Assembly: GCA_003331265.1 (NCBI GenBank) | Contig: QOPV01000002.1 | Coordinates: forward strand, 36,703-100,702 | Reading direction: 5' to 3' | DNA length: 64,000 bases | Source of the DNA: Cryomorphaceae bacterium | GTDB lineage: Bacteria; Bacteroidota; Bacteroidia; Flavobacteriales; Flavobacteriaceae | Part shown: in pieces, positions 49,199-64,000 of the stretch | Layout of the letters: each line of letters opens with the position of its first letter | How positions within the stretch are numbered: the stretch's first letter is position 1 | Notes under the pieces: generated by a model | Told to the model about the DNA's origin: nothing | What the model saw: the letters and a program-made list of their open reading frames with translations, nothing else | Databases searched by the model: none | Translations under genes and position numbers: made by a program

Positions 49199-52100
49199 AT
49201 GAAAACAAAATTTTTAACAAAGCTGTCAACCTTTATTTTGATGTTCGCATTTGGTTTTTCCATGCACTCTCAAACAATAACAGGTTCAGTTACTGACGAA
49301 AATGGTGTTGCCCTCCCTGGTGCAACCGTTTTAGTCGAGGGAACTACTAATGGGGTTTCCACTGATTTTGATGGGAATTATTCTATAAACGCCTCTAGTG
49401 ATGATACATTAGTATTTAGTTTTATTGGATACGCATCTCAATCTATTTTAGTTGGATCTTCTTCAACTATAAATGTAACTTTAAACGCAGATAATCTTCT
49501 TGACGAAGTAGTTGTTACCGGATATGGATCTCAAAAGGCTTCTAATATTTCAGGTTCTGTTTCTATAGTTTCTGGTGAAGATGTCGAAAAATTAAAACCC
49601 TTAAGAATTGAAGACGCTCTTCAAGGCCAAACTGGTTTAAACGTTATTTCCAGTCCTAATCCTGGGGGTAAACCCTCAGTTCTTATTAGAGGAATAACCT
49701 CATTTTCTGGAACAGATCCACTTGTTGTTATTGATGGTATTAATTCGTCTCTTTATGATATGGATGCTATTAGTCCCTCTGATATTGAAAGTGTTTCCGT
49801 TTTAAAGGATGCTTCTACTACAGCTATGTATGGAGTTAGAGGTGGTAGTGGTGTAATAGTTATTACTACAAAATCCGGAAAGAAAAATCAAGAGACAGTA
49901 TTTTCCTTAGACACATCATTTGGAATGCAAGAAGTTGACCATCATATAGATGTTTTAAATGCTTCACAATACGCTGCAATGCTTAATGAAGGTAGCGTAA
50001 CTTCGGGTGGGCCACTTATTTTTTCAGATCTTTCTGGACTTGGTGTTGGAACCAATTGGCAAAAAGAACTTTTTAACGCTGCCCCTATTTCAACTACTAA
50101 TTTTTCAGCGTCTGGAGGTTCTGAAAACTCAACTTATTTCATTTCTGCAGGTTATACTGCCCAAGAGGGTGTTGCCGGTGGAGGTGATAAAGATTTCTTT
50201 GATAGATCTACATTTTCTGCAAATTTCACCACAGATATGTCAGATAAATTAAAAGCAATTGTTCACACTAAGTATTCGAATATCCAAGGCAATGGCCATG
50301 GTGGAGGTCAAATTTTTAATGCTTTAAATTTTGATCCTACAGTTCCAGTTATGACAGATGGAAAATACAGTACTAGTAGTACAATTACGCAGGAGGTTAT
50401 AAATCCTATGGCTGGATTGAGTAATTCTTACAGTGATAATAAAACTGATAAATTAATTGGAAAAATTGAATTGCAATACCAATTAATGGATAATTTTAAA
50501 ATAACCTCTAGAATTGGTTATTCGTCAATTTGGCAACAACAAAAATCTTTTAGTCCACTTCGTTTTTATGGTATTGGTCACAATAGTACAAATGCTAATG
50601 CTGATTTATCTCCGAGGACCGTAGATGATCATAGTAGGGTTTCTGAAATGAAACAAAATTGGTTTAACTACACATATGAAATTTTTGGTAATTATGACTT
50701 TAATATAAATGAAGAACATAATTTTAATGTCTTTGCTGGATTTACTATTGGTAAGCAAACAAACAACGGACTAAATGGAAGCAACGTAGATGTTCCTAAT
50801 AATTCATGGACTTATGCAGACCTTAGTTCTGCAACAGGAGGTGTAGAGGATCAAACAACAGGTTCATGGCAAGGAGTTAGTAGAAGTGTTTCGTTAATGG
50901 GAAGAGTAGAATATGACTATAAAGAAAAATATTTAGCCTCTTTAACAGTTAGAAGAGACGGTTCTACCTCATTTGGTAAAAATAACAAGTTTGCTATTTT
51001 TCCATCTGCCTCATTTGGTTGGGTTGCATCTAATGAAGATTTTTTCAATTCATCTGTAATAAATTTTCTGAAAATAAGAGCTAGCTATGGATCAGTTGGA
51101 AACGACAATGCTTCTCCACAGTTTGGAACCATCTCAAATTTTCCAAAATATACTTTTGGTGATGTTATAACTTCGGGATCTACATTATTAGGAATTCCAA
51201 ATGACGATGTTTCTTGGGAAAATCAAATTCAAACTAATGCTGGGATTGATTTAGTGTTATTTGATTCTAAATTAAGATTTACCGCTGACTACTTTATTAA
51301 GACAGTGGATGATTTATTATTTAGCCCAACTTTATCCCTCTACTTAGGGATACCTGCTTATCCAGTTGCTAATATTGGAAAAACAGAAACAAAAGGTTTC
51401 GAAATAAGCTTGTCCTACAATAATGATATCTCTGAAAACATCAGCTTTAGCAATACATTTAATTTTACAACTGCTGAGAATTTAGTAAAAGAAATTAACA
51501 ACGGAGATAAATATATTTGGGGAAGTGGATATGGAATTCCATTCACAAGTTTAACTCAATTTAGACAAGGTGAATCTCCAGGTATTTTTTGGGGATATAA
51601 AACTAATGGCTTATTTCAGAATCAGTCTGACATAAGTAATCATGCAACTCAAGACAATGCACAACCTGGTGACATTAGATATGTAGATGTTAATGGAGAT
51701 AATAAAATTGATTCTGAGGACAGAACCAAAATTGGAGATCCATTTCCTGACTTTACTTTAGGTTGGAATTTTGGGTTGAACATACACGATTTTGACATAT
51801 CAGTGTTCACTTATGCTTCTGTCGGAAATGATATATTTAGAGGATATGAAAGAGGTTTAAATTATACTAATAAATTTGCTTCTGTTTTAAACAGATGGAC
51901 AGGTGAGGGAACTAGCACAACAGAACCTCGATACTCTTTTATTGATGCAAATAATAATTCTAGAGCTTCAGACAGATATGTTGAAGATGGTAGTTATGTT
52001 AAAATTAAAAACATTCAGTTAGGATACAACGTTCCATTAAGTGAAGCGTCCCCTTTTACGAGTTTAAGAGTATATGCCCTTGCTAAAAATGCATTTACAT

Positions 52101-52228
52101 TTACAGACTACACAGGATATGACCCTGAAATTTCTAACGGAGGTGGGCCAGTACTAGATACAGGAGTTGACAGAGGAACGTACCCCTCTCCTAGAGTTAT
52201 TTCTCTTGGTTTAAACATTAAATTTTAA
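49199..52228 (+). CDS. susC: SusC/RagA-family TonB-linked outer membrane protein
   Basis: ITGSVTDENGVALPGATVLVEGTTNGVSTDFDGNYSI carboxypeptidase-like domain; DEVVVTGYGSQ; plug VSVLKDASTTAMYGVRGGSGVIVITTKSGK; C-terminal RVISLGLNIKF. Confidence 0.97.
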   Translation: MKTKFLTKLSTFILMFAFGFSMHSQTITGSVTDENGVALPGATVLVEGTTNGVSTDFDGNYSINASSDDTLVFSFIGYASQSILVGSSSTINVTLNADNLLDEVVVTGYGSQKASNISGSVSIVSGEDVEKLKPLRIEDALQGQTGLNVISSPNPGGKPSVLIRGITSFSGTDPLVVIDGINSSLYDMDAISPSDIESVSVLKDASTTAMYGVRGGSGVIVITTKSGKKNQETVFSLDTSFGMQEVDHHIDVLNASQYAAMLNEGSVTSGGPLIFSDLSGLGVGTNWQKELFNAAPISTTNFSASGGSENSTYFISAGYTAQEGVAGGGDKDFFDRSTFSANFTTDMSDKLKAIVHTKYSNIQGNGHGGGQIFNALNFDPTVPVMTDGKYSTSSTITQEVINPMAGLSNSYSDNKTDKLIGKIELQYQLMDNFKITSRIGYSSIWQQQKSFSPLRFYGIGHNSTNANADLSPRTVDDHSRVSEMKQNWFNYTYEIFGNYDFNINEEHNFNVFAGFTIGKQTNNGLNGSNVDVPNNSWTYADLSSATGGVEDQTTGSWQGVSRSVSLMGRVEYDYKEKYLASLTVRRDGSTSFGKNNKFAIFPSASFGWVASNEDFFNSSVINFLKIRASYGSVGNDNASPQFGTISNFPKYTFGDVITSGSTLLGIPNDDVSWENQIQTNAGIDLVLFDSKLRFTADYFIKTVDDLLFSPTLSLYLGIPAYPVANIGKTETKGFEISLSYNNDISENISFSNTFNFTTAENLVKEINNGDKYIWGSGYGIPFTSLTQFRQGESPGIFWGYKTNGLFQNQSDISNHATQDNAQPGDIRYVDVNGDNKIDSEDRTKIGDPFPDFTLGWNFGLNIHDFDISVFTYASVGNDIFRGYERGLNYTNKFASVLNRWTGEGTSTTEPRYSFIDANNNSRASDRYVEDGSYVKIKNIQLGYNVPLSEASPFTSLRVYALAKNAFTFTDYTGYDPEISNGGGPVLDTGVDRGTYPSPRVISLGLNIKF

Positions 52229-52239
52229 AAATATACACA

Positions 52240-53706
52240 ATGAAAAACAAAATTTTTAATAACATATTATTGATCGTTCTTTCCTTAGGATTTATAGGGT
52301 GTGAAGATTATGTTGACTACGATGCATCTGAAGCTTACACTATTGTTGCAGATGATTACTTCAAAACCTCTGCAGATTATGAAGCAGCTTTAGTTGGAAC
52401 CTACGATGTTCTTCAATGGAATATTTATAGCGTTATGATTGGAGATATTGCCTCCAATAATTCATTATGTGGAGGAGAAAGTGCTACAGACGTTATTGGA
52501 TTACAAAAAATTGATGACATGATTCATGTACCTCAAAATGATCAATTAACTAGTACTTGGAAATGGCTTTATGAAGGTATAAACAGAGCGAATTATTTAG
52601 TTGAAAACAAAGATAAATTAGAATTTTCTAGAAAAGCGGAGCTTTATGGAGAAGTAATGTTTTTAAGAGCTTACTATTATTTTGAGCTGGTTAAAATTTT
52701 TGGTGATGTACCATTGTTTACTCAATCTAGATTAACCGCTTCAGATTCTAATACTTTGACAAGAGCTGCTAAAGCTACAGTATATGCTCAAATTGAAAAA
52801 GATTTGCAAGATGCTATTGCTGCTTTACCTGCTGCAAAAAGTACAAATGGTAGAGCAACTTCTTTTACAGCTCATGCGCTTTTAGGAAAAGTTTATTTAT
52901 ATCAAGACAAATTTGAGGAGGCTGCAACTATATTAGAACCATTAATTGGTTTATACACCTTACCCTCCAGTCTTCAATCTGTATTTTATAATTCAGGCCA
53001 AAATGGTCCTGAATCAGTTTTTGAAGTACAACACTCAAAAAATTCTAACTGGTTTGATTGGGGGTTTCCTCAAGGTTCGGAAGGAAGTTTTGCAATTATT
53101 CATCACGGTCCAAGAGGATATAATGGATCTGTATATGCTTCAGGTTGGAGTTTCAATGTTCCATCTCAAGACCTTTATGATGCCTATGATGCAGCGGATA
53201 CAAGAAGAGGGGTAGCGATTTTAGATATTGTCGCCTGGGCTGCTAGTACAGGAGCAGAATATTCTGAGGGATATGAACACACAGGATACTTTAATCATAA
53301 ATATATTCCTAGAGCTGGTTTAAGTGGTGCTCAACAAGAGTTAAATTATGGAATTAATTATAGAGCAATTAGATATGCTGATGTATTATTAATGGCTGCA
53401 GAAGCTAATAGTAGAAAAGCATCTCCTAATGATTCAAAAGCTCAAAATTACCTTAATCAAGTTAGAGCTAGAGCCTTTGGAAATAATTCAAGAGCAAGTT
53501 CATCAACAGGAGCAACTTTAACTAAAGAAATTTGGAATGAGAGAAGATTAGAATTAGCCATGGAAGGTCACAGATTTTTTGATCTTGTAAGGACTGGCGA
53601 AGCTGCTGCAACTATTCCTGGGTTTATTGCCGGAAAACACGAGGTTTTCCCAATTCCTCAAACAGAAATCGATATTTCTGGATTAACTCAAAATGCAGGA
53701 TATTAA
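52240..53706 (+). CDS. susD: SusD/RagB-family surface glycan-binding lipoprotein
   Basis: Lipobox GFIGC; EVMFLRAYYYFELVKIFGDVPLF; RYADVLLMAAEANS; WNERRLELAMEGHRFFDLVRTGEA. Confidence 0.97.
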   Translation: MKNKIFNNILLIVLSLGFIGCEDYVDYDASEAYTIVADDYFKTSADYEAALVGTYDVLQWNIYSVMIGDIASNNSLCGGESATDVIGLQKIDDMIHVPQNDQLTSTWKWLYEGINRANYLVENKDKLEFSRKAELYGEVMFLRAYYYFELVKIFGDVPLFTQSRLTASDSNTLTRAAKATVYAQIEKDLQDAIAALPAAKSTNGRATSFTAHALLGKVYLYQDKFEEAATILEPLIGLYTLPSSLQSVFYNSGQNGPESVFEVQHSKNSNWFDWGFPQGSEGSFAIIHHGPRGYNGSVYASGWSFNVPSQDLYDAYDAADTRRGVAILDIVAWAASTGAEYSEGYEHTGYFNHKYIPRAGLSGAQQELNYGINYRAIRYADVLLMAAEANSRKASPNDSKAQNYLNQVRARAFGNNSRASSSTGATLTKEIWNERRLELAMEGHRFFDLVRTGEAAATIPGFIAGKHEVFPIPQTEIDISGLTQNAGY

Positions 53707-53723: not shown

Positions 53724-56246
53724 ATGAAAACAATAAAACAAATTTTTACATTACTTTTCGTCTTTGCAGCTATAATTAGCTGTAATGAGGACTTCATGGA
53801 AGAAACTGATTTTGGAATTGTTGCCCCATCAGAAGTTGGTGCTGCTTTTCAAATCACACAAGATAATACAGGTCTTGTTACAATAACCCCTACGGCTGTA
53901 AATGCTATATCTTTTGATATTGATTTTGGAGATGGTAGTGCAGTCGCAACTGGAATAGTTGCTGGTAAAAATGTGAAGCATACTTTCACTGAAGCAACAC
54001 ACACTTTAAAAGTGACTGCTAAGGGTTTAAATAATTTAAAAACAACCGCTGATGTACAATTAGTGGTGTCTTTTAAGGCCCCTGAGAATCTAGTTGTAGC
54101 AATTACGAACGATGAATCTGTTTCAAAACAGGTTAATGTGGTAGCTACAGCTGATTATGCTACAACTTTTGATTTTTTTCCTGGCGAAGCTGCTGCAACT
54201 ATTCCAGTGTCCGCAAATATTGGTGAAACGGCTTCATTCGTTTATAAAGCGGCGGGTACTTATGCAGTAAAGGTAACTGCAAAAGGTGGTGCAATAGCTA
54301 CAACCGATTATTCGGTTGACTTTGAAGTAACTGCCTTACTTCAGCCTACAACTTCTGCCCCAACTCCTAAAGACAGGCCAAGTTCAAGTGTTGTTTCAAT
54401 TTTCTCTGATAAATATACAGATGTAGCCAATGTTGATTTGTATCCTAATTGGGGACAATCAACTCAGTATACAGCTTATGATTTGAATGGAGATAAAATG
54501 ATCCAATATTCTAATCTTAACTACCAGGGTATTCAGTTTGATGAGCAAGATGTTTCAGGAATGGAGTTTTTACATATGGATATGTGGACTGCTGACCTGG
54601 ACGCAATTGATATTTTTCCAATAAGTAAAGCTTCTGGCGAAAAGTCAGTTAATAAAACTTTAACTAAGGACGCATGGAATAGTTTTGACATTGCAATTTC
54701 TGATTTTACTGATCAAGGACTGTCCATGAATGATATTTTTCAATTCAAATTTGTAGGAGCTGGAAATAAATCAGTTTTTATCGATAATATTTATTTCTAT
54801 AAAAAATCTGAAATTAAACTTCCTATTAAATTTGACAAAGAAGAAAAGTTTAAAGGAGATGGTGGTGCTGGTTATGAATTATCTAAAGACCCCGATAACT
54901 CTGCAAATAATACAGGAAAAGTTACCAATTCTGGTTCAGATTGGGAGAATGTTCAAATCAATCTAGATCAGCCTATTAAAGTTGTTAAGGATGGTTTAAA
55001 CAAATATTCTGTTAAAATTTATTCTCCAGACTCAAATGAGCATAAATTATCCATGAAGTTAGAAGAAAGTGGAGAAAACGAATACATTATTTTAGCTCAA
55101 ACTTTTTCAACTAAAGGTTGGAATACTTTAAATTTTGATTTCTCAACTGTAACTGAGCAAGATTATCCAAATGGTGGTGCTGCATTTGATGGCACGGCTG
55201 ATTTCAAAAAATTAGTATTCTTTATTGACGGAGGGTCCTCAACAGCTGGCACTTATCATATTGATGATATTGTTAAAGTTGTTGCTGCTGGTGATCAAGT
55301 TATATTTGATGACTTCGAAGGAAATGGAACCATTAGTTGGAGAGCTGATGCTCTTGGTAAATCTATTGTCGCTAATCCATTAAGTTCAGGAAATTCTTCT
55401 GCTAATGTACTTAAGTATGATGATACGGGTGGACAATATGCTAACATACAATTTGACGCAGATCAAAAATTTGATTTATCAACTAATAATAAATTCACAT
55501 TTAAAATCTATATTCCTGCTGATGGAATTACAGGATCTCAACCAAATCAGGTTGAAGTAAAACTTCAGGATGGGTCAAAAGAACGTCCATGGGAAGGTCA
55601 GTTTGGGGTGATTACTCCTCTTGAGCTAGACAAATGGCAAACTGTAATGGTAGATTTTTCATCCAAGGCTTCCTCTACAGAGTTCAGTAGAATTGTTTTC
55701 CAAGTAAATAGTGAAAATAATAATGATAAGGTAGTAGCCTATATAGATGACTTTGAATATGTAACGCCTGTGACTCACGATGATTTCGAAGGCAATGGAA
55801 ATATATCAACTTGGTATGGTGATGCTTGTGGTCAGGAAATTATTGATAACCCTGTTTCTGGAACTATAAATAAATCTGCCAAAGTACTTAAGTATAGTGA
55901 TGATGGAGGTCAGTACGCCAATATTAGATTTGACGCACCTCAAAAACTTGATTTATCAATCTATAATAAAGTTACTGTAAAGGTTTATGTTCCTAGTAGT
56001 GGTTTGACAGGAAGTCAAGACAATAAATTATGGATAAAGCTTCAAGATGGATCATCAGGAGAACCCTGGGTTGGTCAAGCTCAAAAAGAGCAAGCGATTA
56101 CACTTGATAAGTGGCAAACATTAGAATTTGATTTTTCTGATCAAAAATCAGAAACTAAATACAGTAGAATTTTACTTCAATTTAATGGAGAAAATAATAC
56201 TGATAAGGTTTTAGCTTACGTTGATAACATATTTGTTCACAGATAA
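53724..56246 (+). CDS. multimodular surface lipoprotein: PKD-like domains plus several CBM-like beta-sandwich modules (SusE/F position)
   Basis: Lipobox AIISC; PKD-like FDIDFGDGSAVATG; modules ending in IDNIYFYK / HIDDIVKV / YIDDFEYV / YVDNIFVHR. Confidence 0.85.
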   Translation: MKTIKQIFTLLFVFAAIISCNEDFMEETDFGIVAPSEVGAAFQITQDNTGLVTITPTAVNAISFDIDFGDGSAVATGIVAGKNVKHTFTEATHTLKVTAKGLNNLKTTADVQLVVSFKAPENLVVAITNDESVSKQVNVVATADYATTFDFFPGEAAATIPVSANIGETASFVYKAAGTYAVKVTAKGGAIATTDYSVDFEVTALLQPTTSAPTPKDRPSSSVVSIFSDKYTDVANVDLYPNWGQSTQYTAYDLNGDKMIQYSNLNYQGIQFDEQDVSGMEFLHMDMWTADLDAIDIFPISKASGEKSVNKTLTKDAWNSFDIAISDFTDQGLSMNDIFQFKFVGAGNKSVFIDNIYFYKKSEIKLPIKFDKEEKFKGDGGAGYELSKDPDNSANNTGKVTNSGSDWENVQINLDQPIKVVKDGLNKYSVKIYSPDSNEHKLSMKLEESGENEYIILAQTFSTKGWNTLNFDFSTVTEQDYPNGGAAFDGTADFKKLVFFIDGGSSTAGTYHIDDIVKVVAAGDQVIFDDFEGNGTISWRADALGKSIVANPLSSGNSSANVLKYDDTGGQYANIQFDADQKFDLSTNNKFTFKIYIPADGITGSQPNQVEVKLQDGSKERPWEGQFGVITPLELDKWQTVMVDFSSKASSTEFSRIVFQVNSENNNDKVVAYIDDFEYVTPVTHDDFEGNGNISTWYGDACGQEIIDNPVSGTINKSAKVLKYSDDGGQYANIRFDAPQKLDLSIYNKVTVKVYVPSSGLTGSQDNKLWIKLQDGSSGEPWVGQAQKEQAITLDKWQTLEFDFSDQKSETKYSRILLQFNGENNTDKVLAYVDNIFVHR
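55308..56243 (+). repeat. tandem duplicated CBM-like module (55308-55778 and 55779-56243)
   Basis: DDFEGNGTISW...GQYANIQFDADQKFDLS...LQDGSKERPWEGQ...LDKWQTVMVDFSS versus DDFEGNGNISTW...GQYANIRFDAPQKLDLS...LQDGSSGEPWVGQ...LDKWQTLEFDFSD. Confidence 0.9.
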
Positions 56247-56257
56247 AATATATAAAA

Positions 56258-57166
56258 ATGAAAAAAATAAATTTACTATTTAAAACAATATTCGTTCTAA
56301 CAGTTCTTACACTTATTAGCTGTGAGGAAGAAGAATACACACTTGGGGCTATAACCGCTCCAAGCAATGTAACACTAACAGCGGAAATAGTTGGCGCTAC
56401 TGCTGATGCCCCTTATGGAGACGGTTCCGGAACTGTGCATTTTACTGTTACAGGTTCTGGTGCAATTACTTATAAAATGTCATATAATGGAGAGGAAAAA
56501 TTAATTCCTACAGGAAAAAAGACTTACAATTTTTCTAATATTGGAACAAATGATTATACTGTCAGTGCCATTGCAGTTGGACCAGGTGGAACCTCCACAG
56601 TTGTAGCTAAAACCGTAACAGTTCTTGCTACTTATAGTCCTCCTGCTGCACTAGTTAAGGCTTTAACAACCGGATCTTGGAGAATTCACAAAGATGTCGG
56701 TGGTCACATGGGTGTTGGTGCTAATGATATGACTGAACCTATTTGGTGGTCTGCTGGTGCAAATGAAAAAGCGGCAACAGGGATGTATGATGATCGATAT
56801 ACTTTTTCTGCTGATGGAACCTTTACTTTTGACGCAGGAGCAGATAACAGTATTTTAGTAAAAAGTGTTCCAGCTGATAGAGATTTTGGAGGACTTAGAG
56901 ATCAGACACCTAGTTCATGTTGTAGTGAGATTGATAATTATCCATTAACTAAAGCAGACATAGATAAAGTTACAGGAAAATGGTACATTTCTGCTCCCGG
57001 TGGAGTAGAGACTATTAACTTGTCTGGCTTAGGGTTCATGGGAATGTATGTGGGCTCACACACTTTTACCATTCTAGATCGATCTAAGAGTGATGAATTA
57101 CATCTTAAAAATTATTTTTCTGATGAAAATAATGCCTGGTGGTGGAAAATAACTAATAAAGAATAG
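56258..57166 (+). CDS. PUL surface lipoprotein: PKD-like domain + beta-rich module shared with the GH16 protein
   Basis: Lipobox TLISC; YDDRYTFSADGTFTFD...NLSGLGFMGMYVGSHTFTILDRSKSDELHLK. Confidence 0.75.
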   Translation: MKKINLLFKTIFVLTVLTLISCEEEEYTLGAITAPSNVTLTAEIVGATADAPYGDGSGTVHFTVTGSGAITYKMSYNGEEKLIPTGKKTYNFSNIGTNDYTVSAIAVGPGGTSTVVAKTVTVLATYSPPAALVKALTTGSWRIHKDVGGHMGVGANDMTEPIWWSAGANEKAATGMYDDRYTFSADGTFTFDAGADNSILVKSVPADRDFGGLRDQTPSSCCSEIDNYPLTKADIDKVTGKWYISAPGGVETINLSGLGFMGMYVGSHTFTILDRSKSDELHLKNYFSDENNAWWWKITNKE

Positions 57167-57190: not shown

Positions 57191-57233
57191 AAAACCTGAA
57201 AAAGTGTCTAATTCATCTTTTTCAGGTTTTTTT
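57191..57233 (+). terminator. Rho-independent terminator
   Basis: AAAACCTGAAAAAG - 12-nt loop - CTTTTTCAGGTTTT followed by TTT; perfect 14-bp stem, 24 bp after the stop codon. Confidence 0.88.
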
Positions 57234-57310
57234 AACTTATTTGACCTGTAATTTTTTTTAGATCTACTTTTCAAATTTAATTTAGCAATTCTAAATAGAG
57301 ACCTATATTA

Positions 57311-58934
57311 ATGCACAAATACTGCACATTTAATTTTTTTAAACTAATACTTATAAAGGTGGTTTTTATTCTTCCACTCTTAATATCATGTTCGGGCAGC
57401 GCATCAGACGACGGCGAAACAGGGCCAGCTGATCCCGTAGATATTATTCCCTCTAACCATTGATATACGTGGAACCGATAGTAATCACCCAAATGGTGAT
57501 GGCTTTGGAGTGGTAAAGTTTTCTGCAAATGCAACCAATGCTGTGTCTTATAGTTTTAGATTTGGGACAGGTGATTCCAAAACATCATCTGGAAATGCAG
57601 AATATACATACACTGAAGTAGGAACTAAAACTTATGATATTAAGGTTTTAGCATATTCAAGTACTAATAATTATATTACCATAGATAAGAAAATAACTGT
57701 TTATGTTAAGCCTGATTCTGAGCAAGGTTTGTTAGAATTACTGGCTGGAAATTCTTCAAAGACTTGGAAGATTAATGCAGCTCAAGATGCACATTTCTCA
57801 AATGGCAGCCCAGATAAAACCTATTCTACTTATTGGGAAGCAGCAGCTTTTTCTAAAGTTAATGCTGGGTTTTATGATGATGAATACATATTTAACGTAG
57901 ATGGTACCTACAAGCACAAGACTAATGAAGATGTTTTCGGTAAAGCAAGTTATTTGACAAACGATTTTGGTTCAACTTCCCAATCACCTAACTCATCTGG
58001 AGAAATCGAAAAGTATCCATTAGATGATTACCAAACAACTTTTGTTGCTAAAAAAGACGGAGATGAAAATAAATTAGAAATTAATGGTAAAGGCTTTGTA
58101 GGTTTTTATGTTGGTCAGCATATTTATACTATTGAGTGTTATGATTCTGATAATATATATTTAAGAACTCAAGACGAGGGAGAAAATGTAGCGTGGTATG
58201 TATGGCTTACAGCAAAAACAGTTTCAGAAACTCACCCAAAAGATCAATTTACCAATCTTGTTTGGTCTGACGAGTTTTCTGATCCAGGAGCTTTAGATTC
58301 AAGTAAATGGGTTCATGAAGTTGGTGATTCATGGTACAACAACGAGGTTCAATCTTACACATCCAGATTAGATAATTCTAAAGTAGAGGATGGGAAATTA
58401 AAAATTATTGCCAAAAAAGAATCCTACAACGGAAATAATTATACTTCAGCGAGAATTATATCTAATACAAAAATGGATTTCACTTATGGAAGGGTTGATA
58501 TTAAAGCAAAAATACCCGGAACAAAGGGAACTTGGCCAGCTTTATGGTTGCTTGGTTCTAATTTTAAAACAGTTACATGGCCTAAGTGTGGTGAAATAGA
58601 TGTTTTAGAAGCAGCACAATCCAATAATTTTAGAGTTCAATCGACTGTACATCATCCAGACAATTATGGAGAGGGAGACAGTCATATTACTAATGAATAC
58701 ACAGATATCACTGAGAAATTTCATATCTATTCATTGGTCTGGACAAAGCAAGCATTGACGTTTTATGTTGACGATAAACCTCATCATATCGTAGGCAATT
58801 CGTGTGCTCTTCCATTTAATTGGAACCAGTTTATAATTTTAAATGTAGCTATGGGTGGAACTATGGGTGGAGAAATTTCCCCTGATTTTGTGAGTGACAC
58901 CATGGAAATTGAATATGTAAGAGTTTATCAATAA
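57311..58934 (+). pseudogene. GH16 beta-glucanase (laminarinase-like) lipoprotein with apparent frameshift between leader (57311-57463) and body (open frame 57441-58934; ORF track 57510-58934)
   Basis: Frame 1: MHKYCTFNFFKLILIKVVFILPLLISCSGSASDDGETGPADPVDIIPSNH*; frame 2 continues PLTIDIRGTDSNHPNGDGFGVVKFSANATNAVSY (PKD-like) ... GH16 catalytic GEIDVLEAAQ (ExDxxE). Confidence 0.8.
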
Positions 58935-58945
58935 AAAATTTACTA

Positions 58946-61231
58946 ATGAAAAAATACTGTATTATATTCTTAATAATATTGACATTAAATGGTTGTCAGA
59001 CAAACACAAATATCTCAAATAATAGAACTGATATCATAAATAAAAAAGTGGATTCGCTCCTTGGAATTATGACCTTAGATGAGAAAATTGGTCAAATGAA
59101 TCAATATAATGGTTTTTGGGATGTAACAGGCCCAGCCCCAAAAAATGGAGACGCAAAATTTAAATTCAATAATTTAAAAAAAGGATTAGTTGGGTCAATG
59201 CTTAATGTAAGAGGAGTTGAAGAAATTACTGCCCTTCAAAAAATTGCTGTTGAGGAAACAAGATTAGGAATCCCTTTAATAATTGGAAATGATGTCATAC
59301 ATGGATATAAAACTCTAAGCCCGATACCACTTGCTGAGGCCGCTAGTTGGGATTTAAAAGAAATTGAAAATTCTGCAAGAATAGCCGCTTTAGAAGCTTC
59401 TGCAGCAGGCACCAATTGGACATTTGCTCCAATGGTAGATATTTCACGAGATGCAAGGTGGGGACGAGTTATGGAAGGTGCTGGAGAGGATCCATTTTTA
59501 GGAAGTTTAATAGCTGCAGCAAGAGTTAGAGGGTTTCAAGGGGATGATTTGTCAAAAAATCATACCATTGCAGCTACTGCTAAACATTTTGCTGGGTATG
59601 GATTTTCTGAATCAGGAAGAGATTATAATACTGTGGATGTTAGTAAAAATACTTTATATAATGTTATTTTACCTCCGTTTAAGGCTACTCTTGATGCTGG
59701 AGTTAGAACTTTTATGAACGGTTTCAATGAATTAGACGGAATTCCTGTAACTGGGAGTTCATTTTTACAAAGAGATCTTTTGAAAGGAGAGTGGGAATTT
59801 GATGGGTTTGTCATCTCAGATTGGGGCTCAATAAGAGAAATGATTCCTCATGGTTTTGCAAGAGATGGAAGTCACGCCACTGAGCTAGCTATTAAAGCGG
59901 GTTCTGATATGGACATGGAATCACACCTTTATATAAAAAAAATAAAAGAGTTGATTGAAGCTAAAAAATTAGATATAGAATTAGTGGATGATGCGGTTAG
60001 TAGAATTTTAAGAGTAAAATTTGAATTAGGATTATTTGACGACCCTTACAGATATCTAGATGCCGAAAGAGAAAAAGAAGTGATTAATCATCCAGATAAT
60101 CACAAAGCTGTTTTGGAAATGGCTAAAAAATCAATTGTTTTATTGAAAAATGAAAATCAATTACTTCCATTAAATAAATCTGATCAAAGAATTGCATTAA
60201 TTGGAGCATTAGCAAATGATAACAACAGTCCATTAGGAAACTGGAGAACCAATTCTGATAATAAAACTGCAGTAACAGTTTTAGAGGGGATGAAGGCTTA
60301 CCCTGACAATAAATTAATTTATAGTAAGGGTGCAGATGTGAATTTAAATGATGATGGAGTTGTAAAATTTCATGAAAAAGTCAAAATAAATGATAGCGAT
60401 AAATCTGGTTTTAATGCTGCCAAAAATGCTGCCAAAAATGCTGATGTTGTGGTTATGGTTCTAGGTGAAGATGGTTTTCAGTCAGGTGAAGGAAGAAGCA
60501 GAACAGATATTGGAATTCCTGGAGTTCAGCAGGAATTACTTGAAGAAGTTTATAAAGTGAATAAGAATATAGTCTTAGTTTTAATGAACGGAAGACCATT
60601 AAATATTAATTGGGCTGATAAAAATATTCCATCTATCGTTGAGGCATGGCAACTAGGTACTCAAACTGGTAATGCAGTAGCTCAAGTTCTTTATGGAGAT
60701 TATAACCCAAGTGGAAAATTACCAATGAGTTTTCCTAGAGGTGTAGGACAAATCCCTATTTATTATAACTATAAAAACACTGGTAGACCCGGGCCTTCTA
60801 ATACAGTTTTTTGGTCTCAATATAACGACCAATTGAATACTCCATTATATCCTTTCGGATATGGCTTAAGTTACACCTCTTTTGAGTACTCTAATTTAAA
60901 AATTGACAATAAAAACCTAACAGTTGGTAATTCGATAAATGTTTCTGTAGATCTTAAAAACACTGGTAATTACACAGGGAAAGAAGTTGTTCAGCTTTAT
61001 ATTAAGGATAGGTTTGCTAGTGTAACTAGACCTGTAAGAGAATTAAAAGGCTTTGAAATGATAAGTTTAAACCCTGGAGAAATTAAAACAGTTAACTTTG
61101 AAATATCTGAAACTTTATTACAATTTTATTCAGCTAATGAAATTTGGGAATCTGAATCAGGTTTTTTTGATATTTTTATTGGTACTAATTCAAATGCGGA
61201 TCTTCAAGAAAGTTTTGAATTAATTAAATAA
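58946..61231 (+). CDS. glycoside hydrolase family 3 beta-glucosidase lipoprotein
   Basis: Lipobox LNGC; WTFAPMVDISRDARWGRVMEGAGEDPFLGSLIAAARVRGFQG; nucleophile region FDGFVISDWGS; C-terminal fibronectin-III-like domain. Confidence 0.96.
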   Translation: MKKYCIIFLIILTLNGCQTNTNISNNRTDIINKKVDSLLGIMTLDEKIGQMNQYNGFWDVTGPAPKNGDAKFKFNNLKKGLVGSMLNVRGVEEITALQKIAVEETRLGIPLIIGNDVIHGYKTLSPIPLAEAASWDLKEIENSARIAALEASAAGTNWTFAPMVDISRDARWGRVMEGAGEDPFLGSLIAAARVRGFQGDDLSKNHTIAATAKHFAGYGFSESGRDYNTVDVSKNTLYNVILPPFKATLDAGVRTFMNGFNELDGIPVTGSSFLQRDLLKGEWEFDGFVISDWGSIREMIPHGFARDGSHATELAIKAGSDMDMESHLYIKKIKELIEAKKLDIELVDDAVSRILRVKFELGLFDDPYRYLDAEREKEVINHPDNHKAVLEMAKKSIVLLKNENQLLPLNKSDQRIALIGALANDNNSPLGNWRTNSDNKTAVTVLEGMKAYPDNKLIYSKGADVNLNDDGVVKFHEKVKINDSDKSGFNAAKNAAKNADVVVMVLGEDGFQSGEGRSRTDIGIPGVQQELLEEVYKVNKNIVLVLMNGRPLNINWADKNIPSIVEAWQLGTQTGNAVAQVLYGDYNPSGKLPMSFPRGVGQIPIYYNYKNTGRPGPSNTVFWSQYNDQLNTPLYPFGYGLSYTSFEYSNLKIDNKNLTVGNSINVSVDLKNTGNYTGKEVVQLYIKDRFASVTRPVRELKGFEMISLNPGEIKTVNFEISETLLQFYSANEIWESESGFFDIFIGTNSNADLQESFELIK

Positions 61232-61242
61232 ATTTATTTACT

Positions 61243-64000
61243 GTGAAAAAAATAATTCTTATAGTATTTACTGTATTACTAACAATTAATTTTAATTGGT
61301 CACAAGGGTTAAAAACTAGCGGTAAAAAAATAGTTGATAAACAAGGAAACGAGGTTCTTCTGCGTGGGATGGGTCCAGGTGGATGGTTAGTAATGGAAGG
61401 ATATATGAACCAATCTGCAGGTATCGCAGGTCCGCAACATGTAATAAAGAACAAACTCATTGAATTAATGGGTAAAGAAAAAACAGAAACTTTTTTTAAA
61501 GAGTGGAGAAAAAATCACTTTACTAAAAGAGATGTCGATTCTTTAGCAGCCTGGGGATTTAATAGTATTAGAATTCCTATGCATTACAATCTTATGACTC
61601 TTCCAATTGAAGATGAGCCAGTTGATGGACAAAACACTTGGATTGAGGAAGGCTTTACAATTATTGATAATGTTTTAGAGTGGGCAAAACCTCACAACAT
61701 GTATGTTATATTGGATTTACATGCCGCACCTGGAGGTCAAGGATATAATGCCGATATTTCAGATTATGACAGTAATAAACCTTCACTTTGGGAAAGTGAA
61801 GCCAATCAAAAGAAAACGGTTGCTCTTTGGAGAAAAATTGCTGAACGATACAAGGATAATGAATGGATCGGAGGGTATGATTTAATTAATGAAACAAATT
61901 GGAATTTACCGGGGGGGACTTTGCTTAGGCAATTATTTGAACAAATTACAGAAGCTATCAGGGAAGTAGATAAAGATCATATAATTTTTATTGAAGGAAA
62001 TGATTATGCAAATAATTATACAGGTTTGACTCCGCCTTGGGATGATAACATGGCTTATAGTTTTCATAAGTATTGGAGTACTGTAAATGATGATGACTTG
62101 GATTGGGTAACTCCGTTAAGAGAAACACATAACGTTCCTCTTTGGATGGGAGAATCAGGAGAAAACTCTAATACTTGGTATACAAATTTTATTTCTCTTT
62201 TAGAAAAAAAAGATATTGGTTGGGCTTGGTGGACGATAAAAAAAGTTGGAGATATTGACAGTCCATTTTCTGTTAAGTTAAATTCAGGATATCAAAAAGT
62301 TTTAGATTACTGGAAAGGAGAGGGTGACAAGCCATCAGAGGATGAAACATATGCGGCAATGATGCAGCTAGCTAAAGATTTACTTATCGAAAATTGTTTA
62401 TACCGTAAAGATATCCCTGATGCAATGTTTAGGCAAGTATATTCGGACAAGACAATTCCTTACTCAAATAAACAATCCATGCCTGGGACTATATATCTTT
62501 CCGATTATGATTTAGGAAAAAATAATTTTGCTTATTACGATGTTGATGTTTCTGATGATAGAGCTAATGGAAGTGGATTTCAAGCTTGGAACTCAGGATG
62601 GCAATATAGAAACGATGGTGTTGATGTTGAAACCAATGATGATTCCATAAATAGTAATGGTCATCACATAGGTTTTGTGCATAAAGGAGAATGGATAAAA
62701 TATACAATCAATGTTTTAGAATCTGGTGCATACAAAGCTATTGCTCGTTATGCAGCTGAATCTGATGGAGGACAATTTCATCTTTCATTAAATGGAGAGG
62801 ATATTACAACTACTCAAACTGTTTCGGGGACTGGAAGTTGGTTTGAATTTGCAAATCATTCTGACATATCAAATATTATACTAGATAAGGGCGAGCATTC
62901 ATTTAAAATTCATTTTGATAGCGAAACTCCTTTTAATATAGGTAGTTTACAATTTATTAAGACAGGAGATGCAAGTTCTGTTGATTTTGTTGCTTTAAAC
63001 GGAAATACAGAATCTGATGAAAAATCTATATCTATTTCTTTAAATCACTCTGTAGATTCATCGTCGATTGGAGATATAAAAAATGAATTTAAATTGATTG
63101 TTAATGGAATAGAAAAGGAAATTAATTCTATTTCCGCCAGTGACACAAAAGAAAGGACTATCATAATTAATTCTAAAACCGCTTTTTTATATTCTGATGA
63201 AATAAAACTTACTTATTCAGGAACTTCTATTAAATCAAAATCTGGTCAAGTGTTAAAATCTTTTACTGACCTACCTATAAATAATACACTTCAAAAGAGA
63301 TTTGTTATTCCTGGAAAAATTGAGGCAGAAGAATCAAAAGTCTCTGTTGGCTTGGGATTTGAAGATACTGAAGATGAAGGGGGAGGTAGAAATATTGGAT
63401 ATACCGACGCAGGAGATTATGCAGATTATTTAGTTTATAATAAAGAATTTACTGCTTATCAAGTTGATTTCAGAATAGCTGCTCAGGATAACGAAGGAAA
63501 AATAGGATTATACTTACTAGACGATTCTGGTTCTAGAGAGTTTGAATTGCTTCAAATTGAAACTCCAAAAACTGGAGGGTGGCAAACTTGGACCACAGTT
63601 TCTGTAAATTCAAAACCTTTAGTTCAAGGTGTAAGAACAATAAGGATGAGAGTTTTAAAAGGTGGATTCAATCTAAACTGGTTTGAATTTAAAGATATAG
63701 ATTCTGATGGTGATGGTGTAAAAGATAAGATTGACGAATGTCCAGATACTCCTTCGGGCACACCTGTTAATTTTAAAGGTTGTCCTATTTTCTTTTTGCC
63801 AATAGACAACAACAAGGTTGAGGTAACTAGTGCTACTTGTATTGGTACTAGTGACGGTTCGATTGGACTTAGCGTTGAGGATAACTCTTTTGATTACAGT
63901 GTTACGGTTACTGGCAAGGACGATCCTATTGCTATTACTGGTGAGAACAAGACAGCTTCTGTGACAGGTCTTGCTAAAGGCACTTATAGTGTTTGCTTTA
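61243..64000 (+). CDS. GH5-family glycoside hydrolase with two CBM6-like modules, TSP3-like repeat and C-terminal module; truncated by window end
   Basis: GTG start, signal peptide (KKIILIVFTVLLTINFNWSQG); KQGNEVLLRGMGPGGWLV, FNSIRIPMHYN, GGYDLINETNW (acid/base NE), LWMGESGEN (nucleophile E), WAWWTIKK; CBM6-like IEAEESKVSVGLGFEDTEDEGGGRNIGYTDAGDYADY; DSDGDGVKDKIDECPDTPSG. Missing from the ORF track because it runs off the edge. Confidence 0.85.
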   Translation, partial: MKKIILIVFTVLLTINFNWSQGLKTSGKKIVDKQGNEVLLRGMGPGGWLVMEGYMNQSAGIAGPQHVIKNKLIELMGKEKTETFFKEWRKNHFTKRDVDSLAAWGFNSIRIPMHYNLMTLPIEDEPVDGQNTWIEEGFTIIDNVLEWAKPHNMYVILDLHAAPGGQGYNADISDYDSNKPSLWESEANQKKTVALWRKIAERYKDNEWIGGYDLINETNWNLPGGTLLRQLFEQITEAIREVDKDHIIFIEGNDYANNYTGLTPPWDDNMAYSFHKYWSTVNDDDLDWVTPLRETHNVPLWMGESGENSNTWYTNFISLLEKKDIGWAWWTIKKVGDIDSPFSVKLNSGYQKVLDYWKGEGDKPSEDETYAAMMQLAKDLLIENCLYRKDIPDAMFRQVYSDKTIPYSNKQSMPGTIYLSDYDLGKNNFAYYDVDVSDDRANGSGFQAWNSGWQYRNDGVDVETNDDSINSNGHHIGFVHKGEWIKYTINVLESGAYKAIARYAAESDGGQFHLSLNGEDITTTQTVSGTGSWFEFANHSDISNIILDKGEHSFKIHFDSETPFNIGSLQFIKTGDASSVDFVALNGNTESDEKSISISLNHSVDSSSIGDIKNEFKLIVNGIEKEINSISASDTKERTIIINSKTAFLYSDEIKLTYSGTSIKSKSGQVLKSFTDLPINNTLQKRFVIPGKIEAEESKVSVGLGFEDTEDEGGGRNIGYTDAGDYADYLVYNKEFTAYQVDFRIAAQDNEGKIGLYLLDDSGSREFELLQIETPKTGGWQTWTTVSVNSKPLVQGVRTIRMRVLKGGFNLNWFEFKDIDSDGDGVKDKIDECPDTPSGTPVNFKGCPIFFLPIDNNKVEVTSATCIGTSDGSIGLSVEDNSFDYSVTVTGKDDPIAITGENKTASVTGLAKGTYSVCF

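Follow-up and report, generated by a model that had tools for sequence, protein, structure and literature searches.

A probable recent loss-of-export allele of a GH16 endo-laminarinase in the laminarin locus of a small-genome marine Flavobacteriaceae bacterium

Introduction

What becomes of a surface laminarinase when its export signal and its catalytic body are read in different frames? This question is raised by a GH16 gene in a stretch of 64,000 nt from a Cryomorphaceae bacterium (the window, numbered from its first letter), which stems from an assembly of 1.53 Mb in 43 contigs that is about 80% complete. Laminarin, the predicted substrate, is a sugar of seaweeds and diatoms. Our comparison of sequences makes it likely that the gene is a recent loss-of-export allele of a GH16 endo-laminarinase, situated in the laminarin-utilisation locus of a small-genome marine member of the Flavobacteriaceae. 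We infer that the deletion would be present in living cells and that surface activity would be lost.

A leader and a body in two frames

The gene and its parts, all on the + strand, are the following.

57311..57463, +, ORF of the lipoprotein leader, with signal peptide, lipobox LLIS-C, an acidic linker of Gly/Asp/Pro and IIPSN, ending at an out-of-frame TGA
57441..58934, +, GH16 gene body in the +1 frame, without leader: PKD-like, SGBP-B-like laminarin-binding and GH16 catalytic domains
57449..57463, +, junction CCC TCT AAC CAT TGA, with the 11-nt deletion placed within about 57454-57459
57510..57512, +, GTG used as start by the ORF caller; the aligned codon of the relatives compared is GTA or ACA
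58362..58916, +, GH16 catalytic domain: PF00722, 81.5 bits against a cut-off of 22; match to 4bq1, E 6.6e-51

The leader runs from ATG 57311 to TGA 57461-57463 and encodes 50 aa with the lipobox LLISC (translation MHKYCTFNFFKLILIKVVFILPLLISCSGSASDDGETGPADPVDIIPSNH), while the body frame is open from 57441, just after TAG 57438-57440, to TAA 58932-58934, with no further stop in between. As the leader ends at its TGA and the body continues in the +1 frame, the lipoprotein signal is out of frame with the enzyme. The leader is 59%, 57% and 63% identical to the leaders of the intact orthologues in G015, G012 and G008, and the body is 90% identical to its orthologue in G015, with values down to 62% within the genus. 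Since both parts match intact orthologues, they are two halves of one gene rather than chance neighbours; the two frames and their limits, as given in a preliminary description, are borne out by these matches and by re-reading the open reading frames. A search of the body frame for another start with a signal peptide found none, the frame being closed at 57438-57440 and devoid of a hydrophobic stretch before the PKD domain.

The stretch that encodes the leader linker (57390-57440) contains the 45-mer with the highest G+C content in the window, 69% against 31% overall, and in several orthologues the linker is likewise the G+C peak of the gene. Amino-acid composition may account for most of this.

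Which enzyme does the body encode? Residues 40-252, which precede the catalytic domain, form an SGBP-B-like binding domain that matches 7kv5 ('PKD domain protein', E 3.3e-12), which we take to be BfSGBP-B. Among solved structures, the best match of the catalytic domain is 4bq1, an 'endo-1,3-beta-glucanase, family GH16' (E 6.6e-51). The body carries the catalytic motifs GTWPALWLLGSN / GTWPALWLLGSNFKTVTWP, with the two Trp of beta-1,3-glucanases, and GEIDVLE, which conforms to ExDxxE; the Trp motif is that described for GH16 laminarinases (PMC11345257). By these features, the body is a GH16 endo-laminarinase, with predicted activity on laminarin.

The laminarin locus

The gene is embedded in a series of genes on the same strand.

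49199..52228, +, SusC-like transporter (TonB-dependent) of this locus
52240..53706, +, SusD-like protein, likewise part of the locus
53724..56246, +, PKD/CBM4 surface binding protein, by domain match
56258..57166, +, SGBP-B-like lipoprotein, a paralogue (about 30% identity) of the N-terminal half of the GH16 protein
58946..61231, +, GH3 glucosidase lipoprotein, intact, by domain match
61243..63999, +, GH5 with CBM6 domains, running off the window

In marine Bacteroidetes, laminarin polysaccharide-utilisation loci (PULs) have been described in a variant A with GH3 and GH16 and a variant C with CBM6-GH5_46 and GH16 (PMC6794258); judged by its predicted gene content, the locus in the window is a combination of known variants.

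Several features of the locus merit mention in their own right. The SGBP-like lipoprotein (56258-57166) and the N-terminal half of the GH16 protein (57441-58220) are adjoining paralogues with about 30% identity, which suggests a duplication followed by fusion to the enzyme. The two binding proteins encoded at 53724-57166 share 84-85% identity with their G012 counterparts, against only about 52% (in the N-terminal part) and 41% with the G015 proteins, unlike the GH16 body, which is nearest to G015 (90%); it looks as if a cassette of binding proteins had been replaced between conserved transporter and enzyme genes. Finally, an apparent terminator hairpin, discernible by eye, lies between the SGBP and GH16 genes at 57191-57237 (AAACCTGAAAAAG...CTTTTTCAGGTTTTTTT); similar sequences are found at the same place in G010 and G002, and the scan did not list it.

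The missing length at the junction

How much sequence is missing, and where? Across the segment IIPSxLxLxIxIxG, the window is 11 nt short relative to ten full-length genus members and four relatives from outside the genus (G035, G027, G028 and Winogradskyella thalassocola), and all of these orthologues keep the same distance between IIPxx and the IxG motif. Where the window reads TCT AAC CATTGAT, G015 has TCT GAT TTA TCT TTA TCT ATT AAT and G008 has ACT AAC TTA ACT TTA ACT ATT GAT; the exact breakpoint is ambiguous owing to local homology at the junction. The comparison with orthologues supports the earlier proposal of a GH16 laminarinase that a deletion, by shifting the frame, has cut off from its lipoprotein leader. 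The proposed size, one 5-nt CTAAC unit, does not fit. Inserting CTAAC does reopen the frame, as claimed, but so does, by arithmetic, any inserted length of 2 mod 3 at the junction, and the resulting product of 542 codons is still two residues short of the orthologues; restoring 11 nt yields 544 codons and a gap-free alignment. The loss of a single CTAAC unit is accordingly rejected for its mismatch with the spacing in the orthologues. The alternative of one extra C in CCC falls by frame arithmetic, as a single-base insertion fails to join the leader to the body and runs into a stop after 68 codons.

The CTAAC noticed earlier may nevertheless point to how the deletion arose. In G008, the junction reads CTAACTTAACTTTAAC / ACTAACTTAACTTTAACTATTGAT, with the outer TAAC copies 11 nt apart, and removing the 11 nt between them yields the pattern of the window, CTAAC followed by the right flank. 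If G008 is taken to represent the ancestral sequence, a repeat-mediated deletion between TAAC/CTAAC copies about 11 nt apart is plausible. In the proposed course of events, a loss of 11 nt would come first. It may have occurred between short TAAC/CTAAC direct repeats that arise from the Leu-Thr codons of the beta-strand directly after the lipoprotein linker. The binding and catalytic domains would thereby no longer share a frame with signal peptide and lipobox; ribosomes that begin at the true start would stop after 50 residues, and a re-initiated product, if any, would lack the export signal.

Orthologues and selection

The gene is in a single frame in all 11 other genus members that carry it, ten of which have the full architecture, with single open frames of about 542-566 aa and a lipobox leader. 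These ten intact full-length orthologues stand opposite the broken frame in the window, as expected for a frameshift null allele. The eleventh, in G019 (L039 3860-5227), has lost its PKD domain without a shift of frame, and its lipoprotein leader is fused directly to the SGBP-B-like domain.

The body is under strong purifying selection, with a dN/dS of 0.05 against G015, a value to be read with dS at about 1, so that small recent changes would not show. Polarised changes are similar in the two lineages, with 15 nonsynonymous and 38 synonymous in the window and 16 and 31 in G015. Neither relaxed selection nor further decay of the body could be detected by further stops, dN/dS or a lineage excess of nonsynonymous changes. 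Given purifying selection without such an excess, the break is either recent or not fixed in the species. In comparison with about 88 kb of G015, the nearest of the other genus members, about 45 genes of the window are collinear and in single frames, the GH16 gene being the sole break in the window. G015 has splits of its own: at about 95100-100800 of contig C4 (L063-L064), the SusC gene of the locus and a Y_Y_Y/Reg_prop regulator-like gene are divided between frames, which may reflect assembly errors or real decay.

Is the deletion real?

The alternative that fares best is an artefact of assembly or consensus, or an allele of a minority strain that the assembler chose, with the gene intact in the population. 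Strong purifying selection on the body without relaxation is what one would expect if the population allele were intact, the assembly is fragmented (43 contigs, about 80% complete), and all related genes are intact. However, the indel errors usual in short or long reads do not take the form of an 11-nt gap away from homopolymers, other frame breaks are absent from the about 45 genes of the window, and the assembly holds no alternative copy of the region; searched for a second copy or variant contig, it yielded the single variant only. Viral contigs contained no same-species copy, and plasmids only distant GH16 relatives. As the size and position of the gap, together with its being the sole break in the window, favour a true deletion over a sequencing error, we regard an artefact as unlikely. 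The lesion thus looks real and recent, and we are probably dealing with an ordinary, genuine frameshift allele of recent date in an enzyme of a known kind.

Could the allele be one state of a switch? Phase variation, raised in the preliminary description, would have one against two CTAAC copies at the junction turning the surface laminarinase on and off; the present allele is indeed out of frame with an intact body, and short TAAC-like repeats occur at the junction in G008. Yet a lone CTAAC provides no tandem tract for slippage, 11 nt rather than 5 are missing, and each of the other 11 genus members that carry the gene has it in frame. A tandem repeat with a unit not divisible by 3 is absent at this site from the window, with its single CTAAC, and from the orthologues, none of which in the genus has a frame-shifting tract; the tandem TTATCT x2 of G015 has a 6-nt unit and keeps the frame. 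With a single variant in the assembly as well, we abandon phase variation as highly improbable; a search of the literature for phase-variable lipoprotein leaders at loci of this kind returned nothing relevant. It is likewise very unlikely, if a shade less so, that small deletions and duplications at the repeats behind the lipoprotein linker switch export within the natural population, with some cells keeping uptake and ceasing to provide a public surface enzyme.

A separate cytoplasmic GH16 protein, re-initiated from GTG 57510, scarcely deserves more credence. It has in its favour that the ORF caller reports this start, which, as had been pointed out and as we find, leaves the enzyme without an export signal. 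But translation from there would cut into the PKD-like domain, the relatives compared have GTA or ACA instead, and an endo-laminarinase in the cytoplasm would not meet its polymeric substrate. As the GTG is not conserved, it is an annotation artefact, and a warning that gene callers list enzymes of this sort as cytoplasmic GH16 proteins with a false GTG start. A programmed frameshift of the ribosome at CCC-UCU or CAU-UGA, which would restore the full lipoprotein, has almost no chance of being right. The shift needed is +1, a type for which CCC-U and a codon followed by UGA are known sites, and purifying selection acts on the body, but the shift site is not conserved, all orthologues are in one frame, and residues would still be missing from a strand of constant length.

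Comparison with known systems

If the frameshift is real, the only surface endo-laminarinase detected in the genome has been lost, while SusC/D, the binding proteins, GH3 and GH5 are intact; a second GH16 gene was not found in the assembly, although, at about 80% completeness, another may be missing. This would fit a 'cheating' cell, which imports laminarin oligosaccharides that others have released. Otherwise, this is a routine single-indel allele.

In its catalytic domain, the enzyme is closest to 4bq1/4bow, presumably Zobellia LamA, for which the solved chain comprises the catalytic domain only. With respect to the entire protein, GH16_3 of Maribacter forsetii, which has a lipid attachment site, a PKD domain and a BfSGBP-B-like domain, shares the order of signal with lipid site, PKD, SGBP-B-like laminarin-binding and GH16 laminarinase-like domains, as well as the motif GTWPALWxLGxN..WP (PMC11345257). 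The Maribacter enzymes are larger, however, at about 700 aa, and their GH16 domain harbours an additional inserted domain that is absent here; in the window, moreover, the leader is frame-shifted off the body, and the enzyme is placed at the level of the GH16 family. The described laminarin PULs, like the window, combine SusC/D, GH16, GH3 and CBM6-GH5 in one cluster (PMC6794258), from which the window differs in its broken GH16 gene, its GH5 being placed at the family level. With ordinary frameshift pseudogenes and single-indel null alleles, finally, the gene has in common one indel in an otherwise intact, selected gene with intact orthologues, and it differs from them only in the gene concerned and in the position of the lesion behind the export signal.
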